From Flavobacteriales bacterium (lineage in GTDB: Bacteria > Bacteroidota > Bacteroidia > Flavobacteriales_D > Sanyastnellaceae), in the NCBI GenBank assembly GCA_030729695.1, contig JANQWV010000058.1, positions 1-57,975 of the forward strand: a stretch of DNA of 57,975 nucleotides, written 5' to 3'. The notes beneath the pieces are model-generated. The model had not been told where the DNA came from, ran no database searches, and saw only the letters and a program-made list of their open reading frames with translations. Below, in pieces: positions 6,366 through 39,173 of the stretch. The translations under genes were made by a program, and so were the position numbers. The first letter of the stretch is position 1. Every line of letters begins with the position of its first letter.

Positions 6366-6369
6366 CCCC

Positions 6370-7791
6370 GTGCTAAAAAGAAACCAAATACTCGACATTA
6401 AAATAGACCGCTTTGCCTTTGGAGGCAATGGAATAGGGCTATTGAAAACCGACAAAGGCGATTTTACTGTTTTTGTTGAAAACACATTCCCGGGACAACT
6501 CGTGCGTGCACAAGTGATCAAGTCCGACAAGCGATTTGCAAATTGCAAATTGATTGAAGTGCTTGAAAATTCTCCAGATGAAATAGACTTGCCTTACCAG
6601 CGCATTCCTGGCGCGCCATACGCTGCTTGGCCCATAGAAAAGCAACACGAAGCGAAAAAAGATTCGTGCCTTCAACTCTACAAGCGCATTGGTAAAATTG
6701 AAAACATTGCTGAACTGTTCGATGAATACATTGAATCTCCTTCTGTTTGGAACTACAGAAACAAAATGGAGTACAGCTTCAGCGCTATCCGCTATGACCT
6801 TCCAACCAAAACAGAACTCGATGATTTCGGTTTAGGTTTCAAGCACAGAGGAACGTGGTGGATGGTTGAAAATCTAGATGCGGAGTCGGGTCTCTTTGAT
6901 GCGACATTCGAAAACAACCTGCATCGCATTCGCACCTTTTGCATAAACAGCGGACTTCCAGCATGGCACCCACCAAAACGCGAAGGTTTCTTTAGATACG
7001 TTGTCGTTCGAAAATCATTCACACACGACTTACTTCTGATCAATCTCGTTACTTCATCTGGAGGACTGGAACAATTCGATCGCGATGGATTTGTGAAACT
7101 TGTTTTAGATATACTCGGAGAACGTTGCGGAGGAATTATTCATACGCTGAACGACGACACAGGAGACCGCGCTGAACCTTTGAATGGCTCGTCGCACCTA
7201 CTCTACGGAAATTCGGAAATCGAAGAAATTTTATTGGGATTGAAGTTCAAAGTAAACATGAAGAGCTTCTTTCAAACCAATCCGAAAAGCGCAGAAAGAC
7301 TATATACCAAAGCAATCGATTACTGTAATCCGGAAGAAGTGCCAAATGGATACATACTCGATTTGTTTTGCGGAACGGGAACAATCGGGCAACTCATTGC
7401 GCAGAAAACTTCATTGCCCGTTGTGGGTGTTGATATTGTGGAAGCAGCCATTGAAGACGCAAAGAAAAACGCGCAAGAAAACAATGTTTCGAATATCGAA
7501 TTCTTCGCAGCCGATGTAGGGAAATTCTTATTGGAGCAACCTCAGTTTCAAAACCAAATCAACACGCTTGTCCTTGACCCGCCGCGAGGTGGAATTTCAC
7601 CAAAGACATTAAGAAAAGTAATTGGACTCGACGCCAAGCGTATCGTTTATATTTCATGCAATCCTTCTACGCAAGCAAGAGATTGCGAAACGCTTATTCT
7701 ATCGGGATATCAATTGAAGAAAATTAGTTTCGTAGACCAATTCCCACACACCTCGCATTTAGAGGCGGTGGCATTGTTCGAAAAAAATTAA
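6370..7791 (+). CDS. rlmD: 23S rRNA/tRNA (uracil-5-)-methyltransferase, RlmD/TrmA family
   Basis: SAM-dependent 5-methyluridine methyltransferase of 473 residues. An N-terminal TRAM RNA-binding domain (LKRNQILDIKIDRFAFGGNGIG) is followed by a central domain and the Rossmann core. Visible are FFQTNPKSAERLY, the SAM loop LDLFCGTGTIG, LDPPRGG, and the catalytic-cysteine motif YISCNPSTQARD. I place the start at GTG 6370, where the TRAM domain begins and just after a good -7 element. The frame is open upstream to GTG 6250; using it would add 40 residues encoded by array A (MEGVSQGRSEG...). Three of the four Fe-S cysteines of E. coli RlmD are not evident, so the exact target base is uncertain. The stop overlaps the convergent ftsA stop by 4 bp. 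Confidence 0.88.
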   Translation: MLKRNQILDIKIDRFAFGGNGIGLLKTDKGDFTVFVENTFPGQLVRAQVIKSDKRFANCKLIEVLENSPDEIDLPYQRIPGAPYAAWPIEKQHEAKKDSCLQLYKRIGKIENIAELFDEYIESPSVWNYRNKMEYSFSAIRYDLPTKTELDDFGLGFKHRGTWWMVENLDAESGLFDATFENNLHRIRTFCINSGLPAWHPPKREGFFRYVVVRKSFTHDLLLINLVTSSGGLEQFDRDGFVKLVLDILGERCGGIIHTLNDDTGDRAEPLNGSSHLLYGNSEIEEILLGLKFKVNMKSFFQTNPKSAERLYTKAIDYCNPEEVPNGYILDLFCGTGTIGQLIAQKTSLPVVGVDIVEAAIEDAKKNAQENNVSNIEFFAADVGKFLLEQPQFQNQINTLVLDPPRGGISPKTLRKVIGLDAKRIVYISCNPSTQARDCETLILSGYQLKKISFVDQFPHTSHLEAVALFEKN

Positions 7792-9326
7792 TTCACTGCT
7801 TCGTCGTTTTCGAAGAATCCTTTGAAGCGGCCGACAATACTTTCCAACGGATTACGTGTCGGGCGAGTTGTTTTAACAGGCGCTTCAGTAACTTCATTCG
7901 CAGAATCTGCCATTGAAGGTTCTTCGTTCTCTACGCTTTCAGTATGAGCAACTGTTGACTCAACTTGTTCTTCCTCCTCAGATCCTGCTACTCCAATAGA
8001 GGTCATAAATGTCATAAAATCATCCGCAGAAGCCGCGTCGACTGGCACATTCACATCTTCCGGAATAACAACTTCCTCTTCTTCTACCGCAACTTCCTCT
8101 CCCAAGACACGCTCGAAATAATCTTCACCCACATTCTCTTCACCTGTAATAACAAGTCCAACACCAGTTGAAAGAGCCGGCGGTAATTGTGATTCGTCTG
8201 TATAGTTAATCACGTGTTCAATTGGCTTACCAATGCGACAATCCAAGCCAGTGATGTATTCAACCAACTGCTTAATGTGCTTCAACTGCGCACCCCCACC
8301 GGTCAATACAATTCCTCCGATTAACTTGCGCTCATAACCGCTGCGCATAATTTCGAAGTGAACCAATTCCAATATTTCTTTCATACGCGCTTCAATAATT
8401 CCTGAAAGCGCACCCAATGTAATTTCCTTCGGCGTTCTTCCATTCAGACCTGGAACAACAACCTTCGCGTTCTGTGTTTCAGCGGCTAAAGCCGATCCGT
8501 ACTGAACCTTCAACTGCTCGGCGTGTCTGCTTAGAATTGAACATCCGGTTTTAATGTCTTCCGTCAAAATATTTCCACCAAATGGAATCACCGCAGTATG
8601 ACGAATCAAACCGTCATGGAAAATAGCAATGTCTGTAGTTCCACCACCAATGTCAACCAATGCAACACCTGCTTCTTTCTCTTCATCACTCAATACCGCC
8701 GCAGAACTTGCAATCGGTTCAAGCGTTAATTCACCCACTTCAAGACCAGACAATTTCACACAACGGTAAATGTTTTTGATAGCTGGAAGTGAACCCGTAA
8801 TGATGTGGAAATTCGCTTGCAAACGAACACCAGCCATTCCAACAGGATCTTTAATTCCGCCTTCTGTATCAACGGTGTATTCTTGTGGAATAACGTGAAT
8901 GATAGACTCACCAGCAGGAACGTGAATCTTGAACATATCTTCCTTCAACGCTTGCAAATCTGCAATGCTGATTTCCGTTTCCAAATCCTTGCGCGTATAG
9001 ATTCCCGGTTGCTGAATACTCTTGATGTGCTGTCCCGCAATACCCACATTCACGCGATGAACTTTAATTCCGCATTCCATCTCGGCCTTCTGAACAGCTT
9101 CTTTGATAGACGCAACTGTCTGATCAATATTCAAAACAATACCGCGCTTAACGCCATCACTTTTACTGCGACCAATACCCAAGATGGTCACCTTTCCAAA
9201 TGAATCAATTTTTCCTACAACACAAGCAATCTTGGTTGTTCCAATATCAATTCCAACTACCAATTTCTCTTTGTTGCTCGGGGTTGGGTTGTTGTAAGTA
9301 GCGAATGTATATTCCATATTCTTCAA
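7788..9326 (-). CDS. ftsA: Cell division protein FtsA
   Basis: Actin-like ATPase that anchors FtsZ to the membrane and recruits division proteins. The 512-residue chain has the phosphate-1 loop VVGIDIGTTKIACVVG, the 1C subdomain, ALVDIGGGTTDIAIF (phosphate 2) and GGIVLTGGGAQLKHI (adenosine). After residue about 400 comes a long acidic, low-complexity linker rich in Glu and Val, then a terminal amphipathic helix NPLESIVGRFKGFFEN that fits the membrane-targeting helix. The linker makes it roughly 90 residues longer than E. coli FtsA. It is the last gene of the dcw operon; ftsZ, normally next, is absent. Four bases separate it from ftsQ. Confidence 0.95.
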   Translation of the reverse strand: MKNMEYTFATYNNPTPSNKEKLVVGIDIGTTKIACVVGKIDSFGKVTILGIGRSKSDGVKRGIVLNIDQTVASIKEAVQKAEMECGIKVHRVNVGIAGQHIKSIQQPGIYTRKDLETEISIADLQALKEDMFKIHVPAGESIIHVIPQEYTVDTEGGIKDPVGMAGVRLQANFHIITGSLPAIKNIYRCVKLSGLEVGELTLEPIASSAAVLSDEEKEAGVALVDIGGGTTDIAIFHDGLIRHTAVIPFGGNILTEDIKTGCSILSRHAEQLKVQYGSALAAETQNAKVVVPGLNGRTPKEITLGALSGIIEARMKEILELVHFEIMRSGYERKLIGGIVLTGGGAQLKHIKQLVEYITGLDCRIGKPIEHVINYTDESQLPPALSTGVGLVITGEENVGEDYFERVLGEEVAVEEEEVVIPEDVNVPVDAASADDFMTFMTSIGVAGSEEEEQVESTVAHTESVENEEPSMADSANEVTEAPVKTTRPTRNPLESIVGRFKGFFENDEAVN

Positions 9327-9330
9327 ATAA

Positions 9331-10278
9331 TTATTGTGGTTGTTGAACTGCTTGCGCAGCTGCTGGTATTAAGTCAGTTGGTATTGCAATGGGTGCGCTA
9401 TTCCCTGTTAATGCTAGGCTATCAACAGGCGCTGGAAATAAATCTAAGCCGCGCTTTTCGCAGATCACTTGATTCTCAAAATTCAAATTAATGCGACTGT
9501 ATTTTTCAAGGTCGGTGATGTACAATTGCGAACGATAAAACTGGAAGAGCATCTTCGTCTTCATTTCCAAATTGTAAATACTTCCGTAATCTATCACGTG
9601 TCTTCCAATGCGAGGAATAACTTCCAACGTTCCCATGGCCGTTAAATGAACATGCTCGGTCCAATCTTTCAAGTCGGCATGTTTGCGTATGTGATTTCCA
9701 AACGTAACCAACTCATCCAAATAAGTTAAGCCCAATGTATTCTCATCGTAATACGCTTGGGTCGCTGGAAACTCCATTGCACCCATTACTCCTTCAACAG
9801 AAACAATTGGAACATAGGCAACCGATCGATCAAGTAGGTTGAATGACTGGCCCAACGTGTCGACATAAAATCCACTTCCATCGCTGTTCATGACCCTGAA
9901 CATTGGAGCGCGTTGCTGAATATCGATATTCAAAATCCCATCCACACCCATGTAAACGTTGCACGATTGAATCGCCGGATGTCTGTTCACAGCAACTTGA
10001 ATGGCGCCAACATCGATCTGACTCATGGGAGTTCCTTGCAACAATCCAAAGTGACTATGCACAATGGAATCAACTTCACGCTTCGTAATAAGCTCGTCTA
10101 CGTTTTGTCCTTTTTGAATATTCACGCGCAATTCCGGAACCGGTTGCGCATTGTGTCTCGAAATAGAAAAAGCCCACAACACAAGCGCTCCAGCGCCCAT
10201 GAGCACAAAGAACGCCAACACCAAAACCCTCATGAAAACAGAGGGCTTCTTCGCTGTATTTGGCTTTTCATTTTTCAT
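9331..10278 (-). CDS. ftsQ: Cell division protein FtsQ/DivIB
   Basis: A 315-residue bitopic membrane protein: short basic cytoplasmic tail, one membrane span at about residues 14-36 (VLVLAFFVLMGAGALVLWAF), and a periplasmic domain with a POTRA-like start (LRVNIQKGQNVDELITKREV) and the beta domain. The C-terminus is Ala/Pro/Gln-rich. FtsQ bridges early and late divisome proteins and binds FtsL. Sequence conservation in Bacteroidota FtsQ is low; the call rests on position between murC and ftsA together with topology and POTRA pattern. It overlaps murC by 4 bp, indicating translational coupling. Confidence 0.9.
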   Translation of the reverse strand: MKNEKPNTAKKPSVFMRVLVLAFFVLMGAGALVLWAFSISRHNAQPVPELRVNIQKGQNVDELITKREVDSIVHSHFGLLQGTPMSQIDVGAIQVAVNRHPAIQSCNVYMGVDGILNIDIQQRAPMFRVMNSDGSGFYVDTLGQSFNLLDRSVAYVPIVSVEGVMGAMEFPATQAYYDENTLGLTYLDELVTFGNHIRKHADLKDWTEHVHLTAMGTLEVIPRIGRHVIDYGSIYNLEMKTKMLFQFYRSQLYITDLEKYSRINLNFENQVICEKRGLDLFPAPVDSLALTGNSAPIAIPTDLIPAAAQAVQQPQ

Positions 10279-11666
10279 ATCACACGCTCTTTCATGTACA
10301 CTTCCAACGGAGAAACAAGGGTGTCAATATCACCCGCTCCCAACGTTAAAAGCACATCAAACTGCAGTTTATTTAGTAAGGTGAAGATGGCATCTTTCTC
10401 CACTAAGTATTTCTCGTCCTTTTGAATTTTATCAAATAGCCATTGTGAATCAATTCCCTCCATGGGCAATTCACGCGCTGGATAAATAGGTAACAAAATC
10501 GGCACGTCCAAAAGCGCTAAACTTTCAGCAAATCCGTCTACAAAATCTCTTGTTCTTGAAAACAAATGCGGTTGAAAAATCCCAACAATACGCTTGCCCG
10601 GAAACAATTCTCGAACCGAACGAATGGCAGCAGACAACTCGGTCGGATGATGCGCGTAGTCGTCAATGTAAACACCAGTCTCACTTTTATACCGCACATC
10701 GAATCTTCGAGCAACGCCTTTGAAACTAGCCAAGACATTCGGTAAATCTTGAATTGCAACACCTGCAAGTAATGCGCAAGCCATTGCCACCACTGCGTTT
10801 TCTACGTTATGCCTTCCAGGTAATCCCAAACGAACATTTGCTAATTCACCGTTTGGCGAATGAAAATCGAAAACGTAAGCACCTTCTTCAATGCGAATAT
10901 TCGACGCGAAATAATCGGCTTCCGACAAGATACTGTATGTCAAAACACCCGAGCGCTCTGCCTTCAATTCATCGTGAATATTCAACTCTTTCTTCACCAC
11001 CACATTTCCATCTGCGCGAGTCTGTTTCAAAAACAAAAGAAACCCTTCGCGAATGCTTTCTTCATTTCCATAGATATCCAAATGATCGGCATCCATAGAT
11101 GTCAGCGCTGAAATCTTCGGATACAACGTCAAGAAACTTCGATCAAACTCATCAGCTTCCACCACTGTTCTTGAAGTGTCTGAAAGCAAAACATTACTCT
11201 TAAAGTTGGAAGAAATTCCACCTAAAAAAGCATTGCATCCGATGGTTGAATGAAGAATATGCGCCACCAATGTTGAAGTCGTAGTCTTCCCATGCGTTCC
11301 GCCAATAGCAATGGTTTCATCGAGTTGCGTAATGTATCCCAACAACTCGCTTCGCTTCCAAATTCTAAATTCATGTTGAAGGAAATACTGCAATTGTGAC
11401 GAATCTTTCGGCACAGCTGGTGTGCGGACAATCAATACTTTTTCCTTCGGTGTGGAATGAAGCAATTGCGGCAAAGACATAACACTGTCTTCGTACTGCA
11501 CCGAAATTCCTTCCAACTCAAGTTCTGTTGTTAACGCAGTAGACGTGCGATCGTAACCCATAACATGCACTCCCTTGCGATGAAAATAGCGTGCAAGGGC
11601 TGACATGCCAATGCCACCAATACCCAAGAAATACATGACATCGCACGTTAGCTTACGCTCTTCCAT
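10275..11666 (-). CDS. murC: UDP-N-acetylmuramate-L-alanine ligase MurC
   Basis: Cytoplasmic ATP-dependent ligase that adds L-Ala to UDP-MurNAc. The protein has the N-terminal nucleotide-sugar fold (VMYFLGIGGIGMSALARYF), the ATP loop AIGGTHGKTTTSTL, the central EADEFDRSFL segment and the C-terminal DDYAHHPTELSAAIRS motif. I use the ATG at 11666 (MEERKLTCDVMYFLG). An upstream ATG at 11678 would add MKWC and more overlap with murG. Even so the gene overlaps the murG end by 14 bp, as expected in this compact operon. Length (463) is normal for MurC. Confidence 0.95.
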   Translation of the reverse strand: MEERKLTCDVMYFLGIGGIGMSALARYFHRKGVHVMGYDRTSTALTTELELEGISVQYEDSVMSLPQLLHSTPKEKVLIVRTPAVPKDSSQLQYFLQHEFRIWKRSELLGYITQLDETIAIGGTHGKTTTSTLVAHILHSTIGCNAFLGGISSNFKSNVLLSDTSRTVVEADEFDRSFLTLYPKISALTSMDADHLDIYGNEESIREGFLLFLKQTRADGNVVVKKELNIHDELKAERSGVLTYSILSEADYFASNIRIEEGAYVFDFHSPNGELANVRLGLPGRHNVENAVVAMACALLAGVAIQDLPNVLASFKGVARRFDVRYKSETGVYIDDYAHHPTELSAAIRSVRELFPGKRIVGIFQPHLFSRTRDFVDGFAESLALLDVPILLPIYPARELPMEGIDSQWLFDKIQKDEKYLVEKDAIFTLLNKLQFDVLLTLGAGDIDTLVSPLEVYMKERVI

Positions 11667-12765
11667 ACACCACTTCAATTAAGGTATTTACAATCTCTTC
11701 TGTAGCATTCGGCATTGCGAATGCAGCTATATTCTCTTTCAATTCTGAAATCTCATTTTCGTTTTGAAGCAATTCAGAAACGACTTCAGCCAACTTCAAT
11801 TCTGCTTCACTGTCACGGACCATTAATGCCGCTCGTTTCGAAACAAGCGCCATAGCATTCTTCGTTTGATGATCTTCCGCCACATTCGGAGAAGGCATAA
11901 ACACAACAGGCTTTCCAACTAGCGACAATTCAGAAACACTCATGGCTCCTGCTCGAGAAACAATCACATCGGCCGCCGCATAAACCAACGCCATATCTTG
12001 AATGAAGTCGTAAAGACGCACCCCCGAAGTTCCTTCGTACTTCGTCTCTAAATTCGATTTGTAAATCTTTCCGCATTGCCAAATAACTTGAAATCCTTGC
12101 TGAAGCCAAGCATTCAAAGAAGCTTCAACCGCAGCATTCACAGCGCGCGCGCCCAAACTTCCACCTACAATTAAAATGGTTTTTTTTGCTGAATCGAAAT
12201 TCAATTTAGCCAACGCCTCTTCCTGCGAATAAGGCAACTTCACGAAATCTTTTCGCACTGGATTTCCAGTTAACTGAATCTTCTCTTTTTGAAAAAATAC
12301 TTCCATGCCTTCGTAGGCAACACATATCGCTTGCGCTCGCTTCGCCAACAATTTATTGGTCACCCCAGCAAATGAATTTTGCTCTTGCAAAACCGTTGGA
12401 ACACCTGCTGTACCTGCCGCGCGAAGCGTTGGACCGCTGGCGTACCCTCCAAAACCTACAGCGACTTGCGGACGAAATTCATTCACCACAGCTTTCGCCT
12501 TCAACATGCTTTTCAAAATTTTAATTGGAAGTAAAAAATTCGAAAGCGTCAATTTACGTTGAAGCCCAGCAATGGGAAGTCCAACAATTTTATATCCTGC
12601 TTGAGGAACTTTTTCCATCTCCATTTTTCCTTCCGCCCCAACAAATAAAATCTCGCATTCAGGAAAGCGCGATTTTATTTCATTCGCAACTGCAATGGCT
12701 GGAAATATATGTCCGCCCGTTCCTCCGGCCGACAACAAAACTCTATTTAGACTTCTCTCTTCCAT
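11653..12765 (-). CDS. murG: UDP-GlcNAc:lipid I N-acetylglucosaminyltransferase MurG
   Basis: GT-B glycosyltransferase on the inner face of the membrane that turns lipid I into lipid II. Glycine-rich loop 1 SAGGTGGHIFPAIAVA lies near the N-terminus, followed by FGGYASGPTLRAA, EQNSFAGVTNKLL and VGGSLGARAVN. The C-terminal donor site contains SRAGAMSVSEL and MPSPNVAEDHQTKNA. It has 370 residues, the usual length. It lies between ftsW (5 bp gap) and murC (overlap) in the dcw operon. Confidence 0.95.
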   Translation of the reverse strand: MEERSLNRVLLSAGGTGGHIFPAIAVANEIKSRFPECEILFVGAEGKMEMEKVPQAGYKIVGLPIAGLQRKLTLSNFLLPIKILKSMLKAKAVVNEFRPQVAVGFGGYASGPTLRAAGTAGVPTVLQEQNSFAGVTNKLLAKRAQAICVAYEGMEVFFQKEKIQLTGNPVRKDFVKLPYSQEEALAKLNFDSAKKTILIVGGSLGARAVNAAVEASLNAWLQQGFQVIWQCGKIYKSNLETKYEGTSGVRLYDFIQDMALVYAAADVIVSRAGAMSVSELSLVGKPVVFMPSPNVAEDHQTKNAMALVSKRAALMVRDSEAELKLAEVVSELLQNENEISELKENIAAFAMPNATEEIVNTLIEVVYGRA

Positions 12766-12770
12766 TAGAA

Positions 12771-13955
12771 TTAAAAAGGTGCTTCTTCCAGTTCTTCTGT
12801 TTGTTCTGTATCATCGTTCTCCTCATCCATCTTCGAAATACTCAAAATCACTCCGAACATAATTGCAACGAAGACAATCGATGTTCCTCCCATACTCACC
12901 AAAGGCAAAGGCTGTCCGGTTGTTGGAAATAAATCCACAGCCACTCCCATGTTAATAAACGCTTGAAGCGAAATAACTAATCCCAATCCCAAGGCGGTTA
13001 AACCGCCGAAATATTTCGGACTTCGAATCGATATTCGAATAACCCGAAAAAGAAAAATAACATACATCAACATCACGAGTGCTCCACCGAGAATAGAACC
13101 GTACTCTTCAATAATGAAGGCGTAAATCATATCTGAATACGGATGCGGAAGGAAGTTTCTTGAAGTTCCAGAACCGGGACCTTTCGGAATAATTCCTCCT
13201 TCGTAAATGGCGTATTGCGCTAACTCAATTTGATATTTCGAATCGTCTATTGCGCCCGCCTGGACTTCCTTTCCAACCAAACGGTTTTTCCAAGTGCTGT
13301 ATCGCGGAAGTAATTTCTCTGGTCCAAATTCACCAATAACAATAATCAAAAGAAGTATCCCAACGACTGCTCCAATAAGTTTGAACAAATGCTTCCAAGG
13401 CACACCTCCAAACACCAACATTAAAAAACACACAAACCCAATTAATGCTGCTGTAGAAAAGTTTGCTGGTAACACCAATCCGCAAACCATGGCTATTGGA
13501 AGAACAATCGGCAATACACCTTTCTTAAAATCGTCTAACATTTGTCGTTTCACGGTTAGCTGACGCGCGACATAAATGATAAGCACCAATTTCGCCAAAT
13601 CACTCGTCTGGAAGGTCACACCAATTCCGGGTATTCGTATCCAACGATCGGCGTTATTGATGTTCGAACCGAAGAACATCGTGAACACCAATAACGGTAT
13701 CACCACCCAAATCATGAGCTGTCCTATCCGAGAAAAAACCGTCAAAGGAAGTAGATGCGTGCCGTACATGAACGCGAGTCCGAGTCCAAGCATGAAGACA
13801 TGCTTAATCAAAACTCCTGCACTGCTTCCACCTTCTGCCTTCCACACCAAAGAAGAAACAGCACTGTATACCGCCAACACCGAAAGGGTGCACAAAAAAA
13901 GTGCAACCATCCAGATCACGCGATCTCCCTTTAAGTGTGAAAGAAACTTTTGCAT
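12771..13955 (-). CDS. ftsW: Lipid II polymerase FtsW (SEDS family)
   Basis: A 394-residue multispan protein of the SEDS family, the septal peptidoglycan glycosyltransferase working with the FtsI transpeptidase. Family marks include WIRIPGIGVTFQTSDLAKLVLI, the periplasmic loop with PHPYSDMIYAFIIEEYG, and FPTTGQPLPLVSMGGTSIVF near the end. The short cytoplasmic tail is strongly acidic (DEENDDTEQTEELEEAPF). Its position between murD and murG, and the partner ftsI in the same operon, favour FtsW over RodA. Confidence 0.94.
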   Translation of the reverse strand: MQKFLSHLKGDRVIWMVALFLCTLSVLAVYSAVSSLVWKAEGGSSAGVLIKHVFMLGLGLAFMYGTHLLPLTVFSRIGQLMIWVVIPLLVFTMFFGSNINNADRWIRIPGIGVTFQTSDLAKLVLIIYVARQLTVKRQMLDDFKKGVLPIVLPIAMVCGLVLPANFSTAALIGFVCFLMLVFGGVPWKHLFKLIGAVVGILLLIIVIGEFGPEKLLPRYSTWKNRLVGKEVQAGAIDDSKYQIELAQYAIYEGGIIPKGPGSGTSRNFLPHPYSDMIYAFIIEEYGSILGGALVMLMYVIFLFRVIRISIRSPKYFGGLTALGLGLVISLQAFINMGVAVDLFPTTGQPLPLVSMGGTSIVFVAIMFGVILSISKMDEENDDTEQTEELEEAPF

Positions 13956-13958
13956 GAA

Positions 13959-15302
13959 TTACAACCCTTTTACCGCAACTTTAAATTGACGACCTCTGTC
14001 TTCGTAGTTCTCGAACAAATCGAAAGATGCGCATGCAGGTGACAACAAAACAGTGTCGCCGTCTTTCCCTAAATCGTAAGAAACACGAACTGCTTGTTCA
14101 GCGCTGTCTGTATCGATAATGGTATCTACAATAGATCCAAATGCTTTTCTAATTTTAGAGCTGTCTTTCGTTAAGCAAACGATTGCTTTCACTTTAGACT
14201 TCACCAATTCCGACAATTCAGAATAGTCGTTTCCTTTGTCAGTTCCACCAGCAATCCAAATGATTGGCTTGTCAACAGATTCCAAAGCGTACCAAGTAGA
14301 GTTAACGTTTGTAGCCTTGCTGTCGTTAATGAAACGAATGCCATGAATACTAGCAACAAACTCCAAGCGGTGTTCAATGTTTTCGAAGTTCATTAAACTG
14401 TCGCGAACAGCCTCTTTTCTTAATTCCAAAAAGCGAGCTGCTGCTCCTGCTGCCATGCTGTTCTGCAAATTGTGTTTGCCTTGCAATGCTAGTTCTGTGA
14501 TTTTCATAGTAAATAAATTATGGTTTGTGTTTAGGTTAAAATTTGATTCGTCGCAATAGCCACCTTGTTCGTAGGTCTTTCCAGGTTGAATTGAAATTGG
14601 AAATAAGGTGGCGTTCAATACATGGCGTGCCATAGTCTCTTCAGTAATGGCATCGTCTGCATTGAAAATGAAAACATCGTTCGATGTTTGGTTCTGCGCA
14701 ATGCGCAACTTCGCATCTGCGTATTTACTTAAATCGTAATCGTAACGATCCAAGTGATCAGGAGTAATGTTCGTTAGAATAGCAATGTCCGCTTTGAACG
14801 CATACATGTTATCGAGTTGGAAACTGCTTACTTCCAACACATAGTAATCGAAGTTTTCTTCAGCAACTTGTCTTGCGAAACTCTTTCCAACATTTCCACC
14901 AAGACCAACATTCAGTCCCGCATTTTTCAAAATATGGTAAGTCAACAAGGTCGTTGTAGTCTTACCGTTACTTCCTGTAATTGCAATAAGCTTCGCATTC
15001 GTATAGCGGTATGCGAATTCCAATTCCGACAATACTGGAATGTTTTTTTCGTGCAGGGCTACAATCAATTTGGCAGTGTTCGGAATACCCGGACTCTTCA
15101 CCACTTCGTCTGCATTCAGAATTAATTCATCTGTGTGCATCCCTTCTTCGAAGGCAACACCGTGCGCGTTCAATTCAGCTTTGTACTTGTCTTTCAACAA
15201 GCCCTTATCCGAAAGGAATACATCGTACCCCATCTTCTTTGCAAGCACTGCTGTACCTGCGCCGCTCTCGCCTCCTCCAAGTATGACTAATCGCTTATTC
15301 AT
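13959..15302 (-). CDS. murD: UDP-N-acetylmuramoylalanine-D-glutamate ligase MurD
   Basis: Cytoplasmic ligase adding D-Glu to UDP-MurNAc-L-Ala. It has the N-terminal Rossmann fold VILGGGESGAGTAVLAKK, the ATP loop AITGSNGKTTTTLLTYH, NITPDHLDRYDYD in the central domain, and FINDSKATNVNSTWYALES with WIAGGTDKGNDY in the C-terminal domain. Its 447 residues are standard. The start shares one base with the mraY stop and the gene ends 3 bp before ftsW, so translation is tightly coupled. Confidence 0.95.
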   Translation of the reverse strand: MNKRLVILGGGESGAGTAVLAKKMGYDVFLSDKGLLKDKYKAELNAHGVAFEEGMHTDELILNADEVVKSPGIPNTAKLIVALHEKNIPVLSELEFAYRYTNAKLIAITGSNGKTTTTLLTYHILKNAGLNVGLGGNVGKSFARQVAEENFDYYVLEVSSFQLDNMYAFKADIAILTNITPDHLDRYDYDLSKYADAKLRIAQNQTSNDVFIFNADDAITEETMARHVLNATLFPISIQPGKTYEQGGYCDESNFNLNTNHNLFTMKITELALQGKHNLQNSMAAGAAARFLELRKEAVRDSLMNFENIEHRLEFVASIHGIRFINDSKATNVNSTWYALESVDKPIIWIAGGTDKGNDYSELSELVKSKVKAIVCLTKDSSKIRKAFGSIVDTIIDTDSAEQAVRVSYDLGKDGDTVLLSPACASFDLFENYEDRGRQFKVAVKGL

Positions 15303-16525
15303 TATCTTACTTTTAGGGTGATGATGGTTAATACTGCTAGCATAATTCCAATAATCCAGAAGCGAGAAACGATTTTCGATTCGTGCATTCCTTTGCGCTG
15401 ATAGTGGTGGTGAAGCGGAGACATTAAGAATATGCGACGACCTTCTCCGTATTTCTTTTTTGTGTATTTGAAATACCCAACTTGAAGCATAACACTTAAG
15501 TTTTCAATCAAGAAAATTCCACACAACACCGGAATTAAAAGTTCTTTTCGAATAGCAATAGAGAACGTTGCAATAATTCCACCGAGCGCTAAACTTCCTG
15601 TATCGCCCATGAATACTTGTGCAGGGAAACTGTTGTACCAAAGGAATCCAACACATGCACCTACGAATGCCGCTATGAATACGGTAAGTTCACCGCTGTG
15701 CGGGATATACATTACGTTCAGATAATCTGCGAAAATGTAGTTACCCGAGACGTATGCGAAGATGGCCAGCGTTATACCTATGATAGCGCTTGTGCCTGTT
15801 GCTAATCCGTCTATTCCATCGGTGATATTGGCTCCGTTCGAAACAGCAGTAACAATGAATATTACAATTACCGCGAACACGCCCCACAACACCCATGGGC
15901 TTTCCATGCTGTCTGGAACCAACCACGCGTAATCGAATTCGTTGTCCTTAATAAAAGGAATAGTAGTCTTTAAACTTTTCTCTTCTTCCCATTGCATGGC
16001 CTGCTGATCGGCTGTTGCATTTTGAATTTGAACATCAGAAACTTTCTCTTTAATGGTAACAGCTGGATTCCAATAAAGCATGCTCGCTACAATAACACCC
16101 ACGCCTATTTGTCCAACAATTTTGCTCTTTCCCGCAAGTCCTTCTTTGTTCTTTTTGAATACTTTGATGTAGTCATCTAAGAATCCGATCAACCCCAACC
16201 AAATGGTTGCAATGATCATGGTCTGAATGTAGATGTTCGTCAAATCAGCGAGCAACAAAGTCGGCACCAGAATAGCAGCTAGAATAATCAATCCACCCAT
16301 CGTCGGAGTTCCCGCCTTCTGCATTTGTCCGTCTAATCCTAAATCACGAATGGTCTCACCCACTTGCTTTTTGCGAAGCATGCGAATCAACGTCTTTCCA
16401 AATACCATGGAAATCGTCAATGAAATAAGAATGCTCAAAGCAGCACGAAACGACAAGTAGTGAAACAACCCTGATCCAGGGAAATTCATGTGCTTATCGA
16501 GGTATTCAAAAAGGTGGTACAACAT
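15302..16525 (-). CDS. mraY: Phospho-N-acetylmuramoyl-pentapeptide-transferase MraY
   Basis: Integral membrane enzyme making lipid I from UDP-MurNAc-pentapeptide and undecaprenyl phosphate. About ten membrane spans; the catalytic loops [17 protein letters not shown] (Asp pair), [14 protein letters not shown] and the late [12 protein letters not shown] histidine motif are intact. At 407 residues it is longer than E. coli MraY because of a hydrophilic insert of about 45 residues after the fourth span ([15 protein letters not shown]...), which I believe is common in Bacteroidota homologues. It sits between murE and murD. Confidence 0.95.
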
Positions 16526-16527
16526 AC

Positions 16528-17982
16528 TTAGTTCGTTTGAAAGAGTTCTGTTATAATTTGTAAATCATCGAAGGGATATTTCACCCCGCTTATCTCTTGG
16601 TATTTCTCGTGTCCCTTGCCGGCAATCAAAATGATATCACCTGGCTTTGCCAGTGAGCAAGCCACTTCAATCGCCTCGCGACGATCAGTGACAGACAATG
16701 CTTTTTTCTTTTGAATCGGATCCAATCCTGCAACCATCTCTTGAATAATGGCTTTCGGATCTTCGCTTCTTGGATTGTCGCTGGTCACAATTACGCGATC
16801 GCTTTTATTCGCTGCGATAGCTGCCATAATTGGACGCTTCGCGCGATCGCGATCGCCGCCGCAACCAACCACTGAAATAATTTCTTCTTGTCCGCGAACA
16901 GACTGAATGGTATTCAAAACATTTTCCAATGCATCTGGAGTGTGCGCGTAATCAACAATTGCCGTTGTTCCATCTTGCTTGCGTATGTATTGAAAGCGAC
17001 CTTCCGGAGCACCTAAAGCGGATAGATGAACCAACACCGTGGTTGGATCAGTTCCTAATTCAACAGCCGCTGCAAAAACAGCCGTTAGATTGTATGCATT
17101 GAATTCTCCGATAAGTGGCGAATGCAATTCAAAACGATCAATGTTTATTTGAAGTCCTTCAAGCGTATTCTCAATCAACTTCGCTTTGTAATCAGCCATC
17201 GTGTGCAACGCATAGGTGCGAACACGTCCTTTGCATGCAGAAACCAACGCGTCGTGGTAACGATCATCTGCATTCACAACAGCGTATGCATTCGCTCCCA
17301 ACTGATCAAATAAAATCTTCTTCGCCTTTATGTATTCATTCATTGAACCGTGATAGTCCAAATGATCATGACTCAGATTCGTGAAAATGGCACCGTCAAC
17401 TTGTACACCAGCCATTCTGCTCTGATGCAATGCATGTGAAGAAGCCTCCATGAAAACATGCGTGCATCCTTCGCAATGCATGCGCGCTAACAAGTCGTTC
17501 AACGCAACAGCATCAGGTGTTGTATGTGTGGAAGGAATTTCAACTTCGTTGATACGATTGACAACGGTTGAAAGCAAACCGCACTTGTGTCCCATTGAAC
17601 GGTACAAGCGGAACAACAATGTGGCAACCGTAGTCTTTCCATTTGTTCCAGTGACAGCAAGAACCTTCATTTTTTCTGAAGGATTCTCATAAAAATTCGC
17701 TGCCATAATACCCAATGCTTTCGAGGTATCGGCAACTTGAACATAGACAATATTCTCGTCTAATTTTTCAGGTAAATCTTGGCAAACAATTGCGGCAGCT
17801 CCTAACTCAATAGCCTTTGCGATGTATGAATGTCCATCTGATTGAATTCCCTTTACTGCAACAAACAACGCCATTGGACGAACCGCACGTGAGTCTGAAG
17901 TAATACTCTCGACAGCAACATTGGTTTTTCCAACTACACCTTCAAGTCGCACCTTGTACAATATGTCTTGCAGTAGCTTCAT
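16528..17982 (-). CDS. murE: UDP-MurNAc-L-alanyl-D-glutamate-2,6-diaminopimelate ligase MurE
   Basis: Cytoplasmic ligase adding the third stem residue. The 484-residue protein shows the ATP loop [17 protein letters not shown], the TTPDA motif for the UDP-MurNAc side, the carbamylated-lysine region and [14 protein letters not shown]. The C-terminal [11 protein letters not shown] contains DNPR, the signature for meso-diaminopimelate rather than lysine, so the peptidoglycan is of the mDAP type. It overlaps the ftsI end by 4 bp. Confidence 0.95.
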
Positions 17983-20072
17983 CGTAAAGTAATTTGAATG
18001 AATTGATGATTCGCTTTAGTTCCCGGAAGTATGCTCTGCGACACAACCTTTCCGTATCCCGTAGATGAAACCTTTAGGCCTCTCTTTTCTAATACATATA
18101 CCGCATCTGTTAGTCCCATTCCGCGGACATCTGGAACCTTGTTTCCGCTTTCGTCTTTGCTCGAGATTGTTATACCCGAAGCATTCGAATTTGCACTGAT
18201 GTATTGCGCATCGGTTTCCACGGCATATGGAAATTGTACATGAGAAAATGCCTTGCGTAATGCGTTAGATTCTCCAGATAAAATTGTCGGGATCCAAGGT
18301 TGTGCAACGAACGTGCTATCACTACCCATTGCGTTGTGCGGAATATCCAACTCCGTTCCGAATAAGATATTCGCTAAATCACGAAAAACAGGTGCTGCAA
18401 CTTTTCCTCCGAATGCTTCGAACACGCGCGCTTTGTTTACAACAACAATGCACGAATACTTTGGATCTTCAGCCGGAAAATATCCAACGAAGGACGCTCT
18501 GTGTGAATTTTCTAAATAATGTCCTTTCTCGAAAACACGAGCGGTACCCGTCTTTCCAGCAGCACGATAGGGCGAATGTTTGAATACTCCCTTACCTGTT
18601 CCAATGGTTGTCACCGCCTCCATAAGCTTGCGACCTTTAGCAATAGTCTCAGGCTTTAAGAAGTTCTGGCGAATAACAACGGGCTCATACTTTTCATAAG
18701 TCAAACCGTTCTTGCGAATCTCACTTACCAAACGCGGCTTCATGAATTTCCCACCGTTTGCAATGGCATTGTAGAAACACAACTGATGCAGCGGAGTGAC
18801 TTGAACTTCATATCCAACAGCCATTTGCGTTAAACTCAAATCGCTCCAACCCGCATCCTTCGTGGTGCGCTTAACACTCGATTTTCCTTCACCCAACAAA
18901 TCAATTCCAACGAGCTGCCCGTATCCGAAACGATCTAGATAATCTAAAAATTTCTGCGGATTACTTCCGAATACATCTCGAACCACCATAGCTGTTCCCA
19001 CGTTTGAGGACTTAGCGTACACTTGTTCAATCGTAATCGAGCCGTAAGCTTTTACATCGCGAAGTGTATGCTCCCCAATGGTAAAAGTTCCGCCTCCTGT
19101 GTGTATGACTTTTCCTAAATCGAGGTTGCCCTCTTCCATGGCTGCAAGTAGACTTGCCAACTTCATGGTAGAGCCGGGTTCAACGCTTTGTGTTAAAGCC
19201 AAATTCTCTGTTTCGTAGAATTTATTGGCAGTAGAATCATACGTCAAATTCGCAAGAGCTTTGATGTATCCCGTCTTCACTTCCATGAGGATTACACATC
19301 CCCAATCTGCTCGATTCACCTCCATCGTGTGACGCAATGAACTTTGTGCAGCATCTTGCAAGTGAACATCTAATGTTGTTACGACATCGAATCCTGGTTC
19401 AGGCTCAACAACGTACTCACCGTTCATGGGCATCCAATCACCCCCTACTTTTTGCTGCATTTGCTTACCCACCTTTCCGCGTAGCAAAGAATCGTAGGAC
19501 GCTTCCAATCCAACCATCTTGCTCTCCCTGAAAATACCAATGGTTCTAGCGGCTAGAGCACCATACGGCTTCGCTCTTTTTTCCTTTGCACTAATGATAA
19601 AACCGCTTTTCAATTTTCTCTCCTTCACAAACGGTAGCGACTTGAATCGTTGCATTTGATTGTAATTCAGATGATCTCCAACCTTCATGTAGCGAGCGCC
19701 GGACTCAACAGCATTCAGAAACATTTGCTTTACCTCCTCCTTCGATTTATCACCTAACAATTCGGCAATACCCGCACTTAGACTATCTAATTTCGAGTTG
19801 AAACGTTCAATGTTATATCCACCTTTACTGTCCCAACGAATTTCATACTCAGGAATACTTGTAGATAGCGGTGAACCGTCTGCTGCTAAAATTCTTCCGC
19901 GCTCCGGCTCAATGTCATTTAACTTATAAGTAAACTGTGCTGCTCTTCTTTGAGCATCTTCATTCGGAATAGCTTGTATGTAGAATACCTTACCTATAAT
20001 AATTAGAGCTAAAACGCACAAAACCACGTACAAGACGTAGATCCAAACAGATATTTTCTTCAACTCATTCAT
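17979..20072 (-). CDS. ftsI: Septal transpeptidase FtsI (class B PBP) with one PASTA domain
   Basis: Penicillin-binding protein that cross-links septal peptidoglycan together with FtsW. After one membrane span (about residues 5-27) comes the PBP dimerisation domain, then the transpeptidase with all three active-site motifs: STMK with Ser301, SSN (YAKSSNVGTAM) and KTGTA (AAGKTGTARVF). A single PASTA domain (VPDVRGMGLTDAVYVLEKRG) closes the protein. I choose the ATG at 20072 (MNELKKISVWIYVLY), which overlaps the ftsL stop by 8 bp. An in-frame ATG at 20102 would prepend ten residues and overlap ftsL more. Confidence 0.94.
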   Translation of the reverse strand: MNELKKISVWIYVLYVVLCVLALIIIGKVFYIQAIPNEDAQRRAAQFTYKLNDIEPERGRILAADGSPLSTSIPEYEIRWDSKGGYNIERFNSKLDSLSAGIAELLGDKSKEEVKQMFLNAVESGARYMKVGDHLNYNQMQRFKSLPFVKERKLKSGFIISAKEKRAKPYGALAARTIGIFRESKMVGLEASYDSLLRGKVGKQMQQKVGGDWMPMNGEYVVEPEPGFDVVTTLDVHLQDAAQSSLRHTMEVNRADWGCVILMEVKTGYIKALANLTYDSTANKFYETENLALTQSVEPGSTMKLASLLAAMEEGNLDLGKVIHTGGGTFTIGEHTLRDVKAYGSITIEQVYAKSSNVGTAMVVRDVFGSNPQKFLDYLDRFGYGQLVGIDLLGEGKSSVKRTTKDAGWSDLSLTQMAVGYEVQVTPLHQLCFYNAIANGGKFMKPRLVSEIRKNGLTYEKYEPVVIRQNFLKPETIAKGRKLMEAVTTIGTGKGVFKHSPYRAAGKTGTARVFEKGHYLENSHRASFVGYFPAEDPKYSCIVVVNKARVFEAFGGKVAAPVFRDLANILFGTELDIPHNAMGSDSTFVAQPWIPTILSGESNALRKAFSHVQFPYAVETDAQYISANSNASGITISSKDESGNKVPDVRGMGLTDAVYVLEKRGLKVSSTGYGKVVSQSILPGTKANHQFIQITLR

Positions 20073-20427
20073 TGGTAATCTTGAAGAAATTTGAATCGAC
20101 ATCTATGATGTACGGAGTGGTAGTAGAATTAACCAATCCCCAAGGCGCAACCTGTCCAACCACCTCGCTATGCTGCGATTTCACACTAAGCTCACTCGCG
20201 TTGGTGCTGTATTCTGAATTAAGATTCTTAAGTTTCTCCTTGGTGTTCTTGATTTCTATTTGAACCGATTCGAAGTAGTAAATCATACTGATTTGAAGGA
20301 AGAACAGCACTACGATAAAAAAGAAAAACGGCATTTGACGCACCAAAGACTGGCGTGTCAAGAACTCCCCTCCTATGATTTCTCTGAAGGTAATTCCTCT
20401 GCGTTTATTTTCTTCTTTCTTTGCCAT
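20065..20427 (-). CDS. ftsL: FtsL-like cell division protein
   Basis: A small bitopic protein of 120 residues: a basic cytoplasmic N-terminus (MAKKEENKRRGITFREIIGG), one span (FFFFIVVLFFLQISMIYYF) and a short periplasmic coiled-coil segment (VQIEIKNTKEKLKNLNSEY). Topology and place between rsmH and ftsI identify it as the FtsL equivalent, the scaffold that activates FtsWI. Sequence similarity to proteobacterial FtsL is not expected. An upstream ATG at 20448 would add MFVRLSK; the later start gives a more typical N-terminus. Confidence 0.82.
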   Translation of the reverse strand: MAKKEENKRRGITFREIIGGEFLTRQSLVRQMPFFFFIVVLFFLQISMIYYFESVQIEIKNTKEKLKNLNSEYSTNASELSVKSQHSEVVGQVAPWGLVNSTTTPYIIDVDSNFFKITNE

Positions 20428-20465
20428 TTTCGATAACCGAACGAACATTCATTCGGTTTAAAGTT

Positions 20466-21359
20466 TTATTTTTTTTGACCTACTCGAAGTTTAGCACTTC
20501 GACTTCTACTGTTTCTTTCAATTTCTTCTTGTGATGGAAGGATTGGTTTGCTCTTCACCGGCTCTATCTGACGCTCGAGATTTCCGAAAAAATCCTTCTT
20601 CATCTCCCCTTCCAAATTTCCAGATCTAAGAAAATCCTTCACCAATCGATCTTCTAAACTGTGATAACTGATAACCACTAACCTTCCCTCTGGTGCTAAC
20701 AACTCCAATGACTGTTGAAGAAACTCTTTCAACACAGCAATCTCGTCGTTCACCACCATGCGAAACGCTTGGAACATCTGAGCCAAGAACTGCTTCTCCT
20801 TCCCGCGTTTCGCGAACGACTGCGTGCAGTCGATCAAAGCTTGCGTTGTTCCCAAAGGCTTATACATGTCAATCTCCTTCGCCACCTTGTACGCCCCATC
20901 AAGCTCACCATACATACGTAAGGCGTCTGTAATTTCTTGAACGCTCGACTTGTTAATCCACTCATCCGCAGAAATTCCAGTCGATTGATTCATGCGCATG
21001 TCCAACGGACCATTAAAACGGATTGAAAACCCTCTTTCGCCTGAATCAAATTGATGACTGCTTACTCCCAAATCCGCCAATATCCCATCGACCTGCTGAA
21101 ACCCATGAAGCTGAACCCAGTTCTTAACGAATCTGAAATTTTGTGGAACAAAAATCAATCGCTCATCCTGTGGAACATTCTTCGCGGCTTCTGCATCTTG
21201 GTCAAACGCGATAAGCTTTCCAGTTGTCAAGTGTTTCAATATCTCTTTCGAATGACCTCCGCCTCCAAAAGTTACATCTACATAAACCCCGTCGGGCTTA
21301 ATGTTCAACCCCTCTATCGACTCGTGCAACAACACCGGGGTGTGATAAACCTGTTCCAT
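20466..21359 (-). CDS. rsmH: 16S rRNA (cytosine-1402-N4)-methyltransferase RsmH (MraW)
   Basis: SAM-dependent enzyme methylating N4 of C1402 in the ribosomal decoding centre. Diagnostic stretches: YHTPVLLHESIEGL at the start, the SAM loop DVTFGGGGHSKEIL, LADLGVSSHQFDSGERGFS, MRMNQSTGISA, and VISYHSLEDRLVKDF near the end. At 297 residues it is of usual length. The first base of its start codon is also the last base of the mraZ stop, giving coupled translation as the second gene of the dcw operon. Confidence 0.96.
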   Translation of the reverse strand: MEQVYHTPVLLHESIEGLNIKPDGVYVDVTFGGGGHSKEILKHLTTGKLIAFDQDAEAAKNVPQDERLIFVPQNFRFVKNWVQLHGFQQVDGILADLGVSSHQFDSGERGFSIRFNGPLDMRMNQSTGISADEWINKSSVQEITDALRMYGELDGAYKVAKEIDMYKPLGTTQALIDCTQSFAKRGKEKQFLAQMFQAFRMVVNDEIAVLKEFLQQSLELLAPEGRLVVISYHSLEDRLVKDFLRSGNLEGEMKKDFFGNLERQIEPVKSKPILPSQEEIERNSRSRSAKLRVGQKK

Positions 21360-21835
21360 TATTTGTCGCCTTTTGCGTCAATGTCTTTTCTAACTTCTTC
21401 CGCCAACGCTCCGAAATCCATCTCCTCTCCCAACACCTCAGCGTTGTATTGATCCAATGCCCAGATTTCCATTTTCTGACCAAGACCCGAAATAACCAAT
21501 TCATTCTTTGAACCATCAACACCCGCATAGTCTAAAAGACTTGCAGGTAATGACAAACGACCAACGCTATCCAACTCAAGAAGCGTAGCTCCCTTCATGA
21601 ATTTGCGCTGAAACATCTGATGCTTTTGATTGTATCTGCTCAACTTCGACATCTCTTCATTCACCATGTCCCATTCCGGCTTTGGATAAACCACCAAGCA
21701 CTGCGTGAAGATGTCGCGGTTAACCACCAACCCGTGATGGAGAACATTCTCCAACTGCTTTTTCAATCGCGCAGGAAAGAGCAAACGCCCTTTTGCATCG
21801 ACTTTACAGTGGTATTCTCCGAGTAGGTTTAACAT
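21359..21835 (-). CDS. mraZ: Transcriptional regulator MraZ
   Basis: First gene of the dcw operon. The protein has two SpoVT/AbrB-like swapped-hairpin domains: LLGEYHCKVDAKGRLLFPARLKKQL and TLLELDSVGRLSLPASLLDYAG, each with the conserved D-x-x-G-R-L-x-x-P core. MraZ forms ring oligomers and binds short TGGG-type direct repeats ahead of its own gene, repressing the operon in E. coli. Matching repeats and a -7 element lie directly upstream here. At 158 residues it is normal length. Confidence 0.95.
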   Translation of the reverse strand: MLNLLGEYHCKVDAKGRLLFPARLKKQLENVLHHGLVVNRDIFTQCLVVYPKPEWDMVNEEMSKLSRYNQKHQMFQRKFMKGATLLELDSVGRLSLPASLLDYAGVDGSKNELVISGLGQKMEIWALDQYNAEVLGEEMDFGALAEEVRKDIDAKGDK

Positions 21836-27382: not shown

Positions 27383-28078
27383 TTACAAGTAGTGTAGCAC
27401 CACTGCTATGGCTAAAACAGCGGCAATTGCTTGAATCATTATTTTCAAGAAAATTGGAAGTGGCAGTGCGAAGGCAAGTACCATAAGTAACATGGCTATC
27501 CAGAAGTTTTTACTAAATCCTTCCAATAAGAAAATCGTCAAGGCTGGAAGAAACAAGGCAAGGACAATAAACAAAACCATTTCCAAATCTGATTCTATAT
27601 TCTTCAACAGATTCTCCGAAAGATTCTTCGAAAGGTCCTGCGGAAGGTCTTGCGAAGCACCTTCGGTACGACCTTGCTCAGCATCTTGAAAAACACCTTC
27701 GGTACGACCTTGCTCAGCATCTTGAAAAACACCTTCGGAACGACCTTGTGAAATATCTCGCGAAGCGTCTTGCGAAGCATCTTGTGCAACATCTCGCGAA
27801 GCGACTTGTGAAACATCTATTTCAAGATTCTCTGAAAAGTCCTGCGGAAGGTCTTGCGAAGAATTTCGCGAAGCGCCTTCGGAACGACCTTGTGAAACAT
27901 CTATTTCAAGATTCTCCGAAAGGTCCTGCGGAAGGTCTTGTGAAACATCTCGCTCCGCATCTTGCGCAGCAAAATGATTCCACTCTATATGGTAACCGGG
28001 CTGATAAACACGTTTCTCAACGGAGCAAGAAGCCAAAGAAACGATGGCCAAAACGAGAACAATCCAATTTCTATTCAT
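27383..28078 (-). CDS. Lipoprotein with Pmp3/YqaE-like C-terminus and an array-encoded middle
   Basis: 231 residues in three parts. Residues 1-36 hold a lipoprotein signal (VLAIVSLASC, Cys18) and the motif EKRVYQPGYHIEWN. Residues about 37-156 are a repetitive hydrophilic stretch of SQDLPQDL, SQGRSEG and SENLEIDVS units, entirely encoded by mini-hairpin array B. Residues about 157-231 hold two hydrophobic segments (VLFIVLALFLPALTIFLLEG and beyond) resembling Pmp3/YqaE membrane proteins. Bacteroidota lipoproteins with an EKRxYxxGY motif before a YqaE-like tail exist and normally have a short linker; the linker here seems expanded by the array. A -7 element TACATTCG (28108-28101) precedes it. 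Function unknown. Confidence 0.78.
   Translation of the reverse strand: MNRNWIVLVLAIVSLASCSVEKRVYQPGYHIEWNHFAAQDAERDVSQDLPQDLSENLEIDVSQGRSEGASRNSSQDLPQDFSENLEIDVSQVASRDVAQDASQDASRDISQGRSEGVFQDAEQGRTEGVFQDAEQGRTEGASQDLPQDLSKNLSENLLKNIESDLEMVLFIVLALFLPALTIFLLEGFSKNFWIAMLLMVLAFALPLPIFLKIMIQAIAAVLAIAVVLHYL
27611..27971 (-). repeat. Mini-hairpin array B inside a coding sequence
   Basis: About 30 units, mostly on a 12-bp phase. On the plus strand the linker reads ACCTT/ATCTT/ATCTC (AAGGT/AAGAT/GAGAT on the coding strand). Units include CGGTACG, GCTCAGC, CGGAACG, GCGAAGC, GTGCAAC, GTGAAAC, GCTCCGC, GCGCAGC, CCTGCGG, and 8-nt CCGAAAGG and CTGAAAAG. GCGAAGC occurs five times (27653, 27761, 27773, 27797, 27869), all separated by multiples of 12. 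A 65-bp stretch at 27806 recurs 84 bp later at 27890 with paired substitutions. A few units are imperfect (GAAAAAC, GCGAAGA). Confidence 0.9.
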
Positions 28079-38126: not shown

Positions 38127-38129
38127 TTG

Positions 38130-39047
38130 ATGAAAGGCAATTGGCGTAGCCTTCCAGTTATTGTCATTTTAGCAATAATCTGGGGTAGCTCTTTCATTCT
38201 CATGAAGCGAGGCATGTTCGCCTTCGACGCCAACGGCATTCAAGTTCCTGTCTTTTCACCGAATCAAGTTGCTGCTTTACGATTAGGCATTGCTTCTTTG
38301 GTCATGCTTCCTTTCGCGTTCATTTTCAAAAGTTGGCTGAAGCGTGAGTTAATCTGGTGGTATGTTGTGGTTGGAATGTTGGGAAGCGGGATTCCTGCCT
38401 TCCTTTTCACGAATTCGCAAATGTTCTTGCACTCGAGCATGTCGGGCATCTTGAATGCACTAACCCCGCTCTTTACCCTAATTGTCGGATACCTTGTTTT
38501 CAAGAAGTCGGTCCGGAAAATGCAAATCGTTGGAGTAACGCTCGGACTTATTGGTGCAGTATGCCTTATTAGTTTGCGCGGATTGGGCGATTCGAAGAAT
38601 ATGGCGTACAGCATGCTTATTGTGCTCGCCACCATAAGCTATGGTTTCAGTGTGAACACCATTCATAGCAAACTACATGGTGTACCTTCGTTCGCTATTT
38701 CAGCATTTTCGTTGTTGGTAATAGGCATTCCCTGTTGGATCCTCATTGCCACAGACGGCACATTGGACATTCTTGAAACAAACGTTCACGGCTGGAGAAG
38801 CTTCGGTTTCGTGGCAACCCTCGCTATTCTCAGCACAGCGCTCGGAAATATCTTGTTCTTCCGCTTCACTCAGAAGGTTGGTGCACTTGCTGCATCTTCC
38901 ATTACCTACCTCATTCCAATCGTAGCTATTTTATGGGGAGTATACGACGGCGAGCCGTTCACGTGGCTTCACGGAGCTTTTGCGGGGATTATTCTTACTG
39001 GGATTTATTTGGTGAATAAACAGCCTGCTTCGAGATTCACGAAGTGA
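38130..39047 (+). CDS. EamA-family (DMT) membrane transporter
   Basis: A 305-residue protein with ten predicted membrane spans in two EamA repeats: VIVILAIIWGSSFILMKRG opens the first, MAYSMLIVLATISYGFSVN the second. The family exports amino acids, nucleobases or other metabolites; the substrate is not evident. The ATG at 38130 follows the T9SS gene by 3 bp. The last codons (ASRFTK and the TGA) lie within the first unit of mini-hairpin array C, so the C-terminus has been shaped by the array. Confidence 0.87.
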   Translation: MKGNWRSLPVIVILAIIWGSSFILMKRGMFAFDANGIQVPVFSPNQVAALRLGIASLVMLPFAFIFKSWLKRELIWWYVVVGMLGSGIPAFLFTNSQMFLHSSMSGILNALTPLFTLIVGYLVFKKSVRKMQIVGVTLGLIGAVCLISLRGLGDSKNMAYSMLIVLATISYGFSVNTIHSKLHGVPSFAISAFSLLVIGIPCWILIATDGTLDILETNVHGWRSFGFVATLAILSTALGNILFFRFTQKVGALAASSITYLIPIVAILWGVYDGEPFTWLHGAFAGIILTGIYLVNKQPASRFTK

Positions 39048-39173
39048 AAGATGTTACTCAAGATTCACGAAGTGAAAGATGTTACTCAAGATTCACGAAG
39101 TGAAAGATGTTACACAAGATGCGATGCAAGATTCTTCGAAAGAATTTCACCAAAGGTTTGATCGTGAAACGAT
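39037..39173 (+). repeat. Mini-hairpin array C (AAGAT linker) at the EamA stop codon
   Basis: Units separated by AAGAT: TCACGAAGTGA (39037, 39065, 39093; 4-bp stem, GAA loop), GTTACTC (39053, 39081), GTTACAC (39109), GCGATGC (39121) and TCTTCGAAAGA (39133-39143). Next come ATTTC, ACCAAAGGT (39149-39157) and ATCGTGAAACGAT (39161-39173; 5-bp stem, GAA loop). The first part is a 28-bp direct repeat, nearly three copies. All units are self-complementary except GTTACTC, which has one mismatch; its third copy is GTTACAC, fully paired. Confidence 0.9.

Follow-up and report, generated by a model that had tools for sequence, protein, structure and literature searches.

The repeats described here, which include a segment of a 57,975-nt window (the whole stretch of DNA that was analysed), probably represent a genus-restricted family of tandem DNA mini-hairpins, and their sequence organization points to a selfish, structure-selected element kept by a hairpin constraint. 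Along the units the sequence varies freely, while the folding capacity of each 12-base unit is kept. For RNA, structure is usually proven through compensatory evolution; to our knowledge, there are few clear genome-wide cases in which this has been seen for DNA mini-hairpins of only 2-3 bp. The nine related genomes, with hundreds of units, constitute a ready data set for studying the origin, correction, and spread of short palindromes, and the arrays allow one to ask whether an enzyme recognizes DNA hairpins by their shape and, if so, which one. Coding genes are also invaded by the arrays, with the reading frame unbroken.

The 12-bp unit and its pairing

The genus-wide pattern search defines the unit as AAG-R-[T-NN-TNC-NN-A], with a period of 12 and both NN pairs complementary (units written out: AAGRTNNTNCNN). 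Each unit comprises a linker (AAG-R or its complement) and a 9-nt hairpin sequence, T-NN-TNC-NN-A, with a GNA loop on the opposite strand (predicted hairpin form of this strand: TNNGNANNA); AAG-R / Y-CTT is the constant neighbor of the hairpin. In units picked blind to their stems, the NN pairs are complementary in 423 of 443 cases (95%), and both inner pairs are formed in 707 of the 762 units picked by linkers alone. Mutual information amounts to 1.43 bits for one pair and 0.97 bits for the other, compared with at most 0.28 bits elsewhere and a shuffle maximum of 0.023. When one unit was taken per array block (64 distinct units), 96.9% of cells were paired and covariation was 0.663 versus 0.172 ± 0.026 in shuffled sets (reached in 0 of 500 shuffles) and at most 0.19 when slid; all paired states in this set are Watson-Crick, with no G·T or one-side-changed G-U type pairs. 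The outer T-A pair is nearly constant, and it too changes to C-G on both sides (24 two-sided paired and 19 one-sided changes).

Given the stems, roughly three in four units have a TTC, TGC, TAC, or TCC loop, which reads as GNA on the other strand (603 of about 790 carry TNC on the AAG strand), and the commonest closing pair on the GNA strand is C-G. Most units are built from eight words, and longer-stem hairpins (TGCCGAAGGCA, TTCACGAAGTGAA, TGCAAATGCTTTGCA) occur between the same linkers. A DNA energy model assigns the 9-mers (3-bp hairpins) about 0 to -0.3 kcal/mol, with parameters that may not credit GNA loops, and minimum free energy DNA folds of the segment at 27806 are weakly better than those of shuffles (z about -1.4). 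Rules for GNA loops are known from d(cGNAg) hairpins. The chemistry of the GNA loop, including its stability, has been described before, d(GCGAAGC) being an extraordinarily stable DNA mini-hairpin (PMC10527192); it shares with the arrays a GNA loop with a free apex and a preference for C-G closing, but it is a physical motif, whereas the arrays are a genomic repeat family.

The window contains three arrays, and its two-unit matches (21 versus 0.9 expected) are far beyond chance. The main features are as follows:

6213-6340, plus strand (AAG strand): second array, upstream of or N-terminal to the ORF at 6250-7791
27383-28078, minus strand: gene of a 231-aa lipoprotein with the array in frame, a signal sequence ending in LASC, and a membrane C-terminus
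27608-27978, no single strand: 12-bp mini-hairpin array within the lipoprotein gene, with blocks of mixed orientation
27620-27646, plus strand: AAG-forward units AAGATTCTTCGA AAGGTCCTGCGG AAG
27647-27818, minus strand: CTT-orientation units (AAG strand minus), following the centre AAGGTCTTGCGAAGCACCTT
39033-39145, plus strand: third array, between a transporter ORF (38127-39047) and a 102-aa ORF at 39280, with long-stem units TTCAC-GAA-GTGAA

Orthologs of the lipoprotein comprise 203, 301, 224, and 231 aa, and the array is the main difference between them; it is in frame in five genomes/species (total length 203-301 aa).

Distribution, orientation, and sites of the arrays

Using the two-unit pattern, dispersed arrays were found in eight of nine genomes of one lake/freshwater Flavobacteriales genus and in none of 11 genomes of other genera; the backward pattern, used as a control across the same genomes, gave 0 matches. 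All six stem pairs were formed at 19 of 23 unit-pattern loci in the genus versus 0 of 26 in other taxa, where the matches are mostly one repeated, non-pairing word. A sequence-blind scan of the array stretches detected 81 period-12 hairpin runs compared with two in shuffles, and no such runs were found in samples of G007, the sole array-free genome of the genus, and of four other genera. G007 offers a natural contrast for tracing a putative responsible factor. We also considered virus-borne arrays and rejected them: of 46 viral contigs matching the unit pattern, none has mixed palindromic words, and one is a single-word case. L123, L131, L137, L144, and L154 (CAMCUG01 and CAMCVP01) come from public metagenome-assembled genomes titled Chryseobacterium gleum; the identity of their contigs with those of G008 and G004 places these genomes in the array genus, and their titles look wrong.

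The array survey comprised 1.3 Mb from seven genomes with 127 array blocks, a set that is not a random genome sample because the stretches were chosen around arrays. In this set, 46 of the 127 arrays lie in open frames and more than half are non-coding, and pairing is similar in the two groups (247 of 253 in coding versus 258 of 271 in non-coding arrays). The repeat would reside between genes and in tolerant coding linkers, in which a 12-bp unit preserves the frame.

A single orientation characterizes 80 of the 127 blocks. Among the simple blocks with two orientations, 44 of 45 are convergent (AAG→ ←CTT) and one is divergent, and two further blocks are mixed; AAGGTCTTGCGAAGCACCTT and AAGGACGCTTCGCGTAGCGACCTT are recurrent centres. 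Due to the convergent order, the two arms have complementary linkers and loops. Complementarity of the stem words between left and right arms was rejected, their sharing being below expectation (0.09 versus 0.20). Two-arm blocks such as L043:10524-10622 and L100:9381-9538 look as though there were avoidance of long perfect palindromes. Other species have counterparts at these array sites that contain few units or are empty, that is, arrays expand and contract at fixed sites. Comparison of the empty site L055:2861-2971 with L085 shows a possible target duplication of ~9-10 bp (ACGGAGTAAA / ACGAATAAAC), which is one suggestive case. With respect to the replication strand, determined by GC skew, arrays split 35 versus 22.

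The duplicated block and stem changes between copies

A preliminary description of the window had presented a duplicated part of the central array as a case of paired substitutions. The relevant features are as follows:

27806-27856, plus strand: copy 1 of the duplicated block, homologous core with two differences
27824-27850, plus strand: AAG-forward units of copy 1, including T27833 (loop) and A27838 (linker)
27890-27940, plus strand: copy 2 of the duplicated block
27908-27934, plus strand: AAG-forward units of copy 2

Direct comparison confirmed that the segment at 27806 is repeated at 27890, with an offset of 84 bp (7 x 12). The identical start comprises 27 bases (27806-27832) and not 28, the positions given for the differences were all one base too high, and the 65 bp compared contain seven differences (T27833/C27917, A27838/G27922, C27857/T27941, G27861/A27945, A27862/C27946, T27865/C27949, and G27870/T27954) rather than six. 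Over the full 84 bp the copies differ at 18 positions, and their likeness ends after about 27856.

The first proposed pair, T27833C with A27838G, had been interpreted as a T-A to C-G change in a stem. In the family register (plus strand, AAGA-T-TC-TCY-GA-A-A(A/G)G), these changes affect the third loop base and the linker G and no stem base; the CC-GAAA-GG register used previously is an alternative pairing. Across the family, these two positions show no covariation, loop T occurring with linker A 8 times and with linker G 143 times. The T/A state (AGGACTTTTCAGAGAATCTT) is found only in the window, and it is derived in copy 1, because other loci keep the CC..GG form (present in window copy 2, L052, L099, and L116). 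The second proposed pair (27857/27861/27862) does fall on a stem when read in the family register (GC-GAA-GA versus GT-GAA-AC), but its location is where homology between the copies ends. The word of copy 1 at this site (GCGAAATTCTTCGCAAGACC) is also present in G002 and that of copy 2 (GATGTTTCACAAGACC) is present elsewhere too; rather than a substitution, the site probably marks the point where each copy joins another unit that is independently attested. Both window examples are therefore poor evidence, since one was read in the wrong register and the other lies at the end of the duplication.

The underlying idea fared better: family-wide counts show that stems change in complementary pairs with the structure kept, many-fold above chance, and that coding does not explain this. 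In orthologous arrays, we counted 106 two-sided paired versus 34 one-sided changes at the outer pair and 108 versus 54 at the inner pair. When within-genome and between-genome comparisons were pooled by identity, the ratio of one-sided to two-sided paired changes was 13:1 (at least 97%), 20:12 (94-97%), 54:85 (90-94%), and 141:385 (85-90%), where the high-identity classes hold fewer two-sided changes because each counts as two differences, and the low-identity classes carry less weight, since their alignments may include non-homologous units. With the frame taken from neighboring linkers, two-sided paired changes numbered 4 versus 0.28 expected at 94-99.99% identity and 37 versus 2.2 expected at 90-94% identity. 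None of these tallies represents independent events. The comparison of paired with unpaired changes in duplicated segments, which had been proposed as a measure of structure maintenance, gave a mixed outcome. In the nearest copies, unpaired changes are indeed as common as paired ones, which is the result that had been named as refuting the idea, but paired changes in duplicated or orthologous segments exceed independence by about 14- to 17-fold; in diverged copies, paired changes dominate, which is the pattern of stepwise compensation. A single-step template switch, also suggested previously, is not favored, because one-sided changes dominate near-identical copies; compensation appears stepwise instead. 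Stem bases are free as long as they are paired, and two-sided changes accumulate stepwise with divergence. Among mismatches, C.A is slightly favored over T.G, but the difference is not large enough to single out one strand.

Competing explanations and related repeat families

In our preferred reading, that of a structure-selected mini-hairpin family, the constraint would act on single-stranded or cruciform DNA and not on RNA or peptide, so that folding units would be the ones to persist and multiply. Folding units may be favored by a structure-specific factor or by hairpin-dependent replication expansion, and quasi-palindrome correction is a further candidate agent. The constant linker and loop ends, together with the free apex, suggest recognition of the unit in its folded form. 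More tentatively, the arrays may be a bacterial satellite DNA with convergent arms, in which DNA secondary structure is the unit of selection and which a putative genus-specific factor copies or recognizes. Searches for Y1/HUH transposases, reverse transcriptase, and SbcD found no trans-acting factor for the arrays. Y1/HUH transposase was rejected as a mobilizer based on distribution and neighborhood: Y1 transposase (PF01797) was undetected in G001, G002, G005, G007, and G008, all of which except G007 carry arrays, and the Y1 genes examined, in L169, L171, L173, and L174, have no array units next to them. Reverse transcriptase was also rejected, as none occurs in the genus.

For the pairing itself, the main rival is quasi-palindrome correction, in which a broken pair is restored to either base by template switching between the arms, with no selection. 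Such correction is known for imperfect inverted repeats (PMC3820800), would yield exact Watson-Crick pairs without G-T, as observed, and works on either strand, in coding or non-coding DNA. It would also be compatible with the SbcD protein scoring below the family cut-off in the genus and in all 20 genomes searched. We nevertheless consider it rather unlikely, as it does not account for the constancy of the AAG linker, for loops with T..C ends and a free apex, or for the convergent order, a stem length of 2-3 bp is very small for template switching, and close genera with the same SbcD state have no arrays. SbcCD loss as a genus-specific cause was rejected, since the SbcD result is shared by array-free genera and is not array-specific; it may represent a background that tolerates palindromes.

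Another possible, though doubtful, explanation is turnover of unit words, where slippage and recombination shuffle a small palindromic dictionary (GC, GT, TC, CC, CG, AC, CT, and TT stems) and replaces whole units. Word exchange clearly occurs: the eight words make up most units, many differing units also alter the loop or linker, and the second window example is of this kind. Against turnover as the source of the paired changes, clean single-pair changes account for 15 of 65 cases in matched contexts, compared with 6% expected for random words, transitions make up 70-83% of paired changes versus 48% for random word exchange, and one-sided intermediates dominate the closest copies. Turnover also leaves the palindromy of all words unexplained.

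A function at the RNA level, with transcript hairpins serving as terminators, processing sites, or stabilizers, is improbable, even though arrays inside genes are transcribed and CCTTCGG-type units resemble UUCG hairpins. The RNA fold of the segment at 27806 is no better than shuffles (z -0.88). The Watson-Crick-only pairs without G-U, the indifference to coding, and the lack of orientation preference at tandem intergenic sites (24 same versus 27 opposite) argue for DNA rather than RNA as the level of constraint. Selection on the repeated peptide G/D-x-S-x, for which only the in-frame array of the lipoprotein gene in five genomes would speak, is refuted here as a general cause and hardly credible, because arrays inside and outside open frames pair equally, more than half of arrays are non-coding, and A-T outer pairs, which non-coding arrays contain, give TAA stops in the frame of the lipoprotein gene.

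We found no prior description of this array family in the openly licensed literature, the scope of our search. The nearest architecture is that of the LIMP/HyLIMP repeats of the Lobosphaera incisa mitochondrion, where LIMPs have a convergent (AACCA)m - loop - (TGGTT)n form with unequal m and n, are dispersed in one lineage only, and HyLIMP stems show complementary changes (PMC4524435). Like LIMPs, the arrays have convergent complementary units around a centre, but LIMP arms pair with each other and their unit is fixed, whereas here each 12-bp unit is a hairpin whose stems covary freely. The arrays lack the AACCA unit and 7-nt loop, reside in a bacterial host, and in over a third of cases run through open frames. 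REP/BIME elements with TnpA-REP (RAYT) share many dispersed short palindromes in alternating orientations and a constant motif beside the hairpin, GTAG in REP and AAG here (PMC8266576, PMC2817692). REP are extragenic palindromes of 20-50 nt with a cognate Y1 gene flanked by repeats, whereas the arrays are tandem 12-bp units with a 3-bp stem, often intragenic, several of their carriers have no Y1, and no Y1 gene is adjacent; membership in the REP family was excluded on motif, transposase, and size (PMC8266576). Rickettsia palindromic elements and PARCELs likewise insert palindromic repeats into frames without frame loss, PARCELs in tandem, but their units are longer, PARCELs have a conserved 25-aa amphipathic peptide, in contrast to the 4-aa coding unit here, and unit-by-unit stem covariation is not known to have been described for them (PMC2996958). 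The arrays do not fit CRISPR, which has identical repeats with unique spacers, as they consist of 12-bp units without spacers. The double-hairpin elements of Allomyces mitochondria (Paquin et al. 2000) are reportedly small mobile hairpins, by name with two hairpins per element and not 12-bp arrays.

Elsewhere in the window, positions 5842-6177, adjoining an array, contain a short ORF of repeated DAEYKA motifs with a 39-bp period. Positions 7788-21835 hold an apparent division/cell-wall gene cluster, with ORFs whose translations resemble ftsA to mraZ. A large, repetitive protein of surface type, truncated where the contig ends, is encoded at positions 56013-57974; its repeats measure 240 bp, and its C-terminus is of the sorting type.
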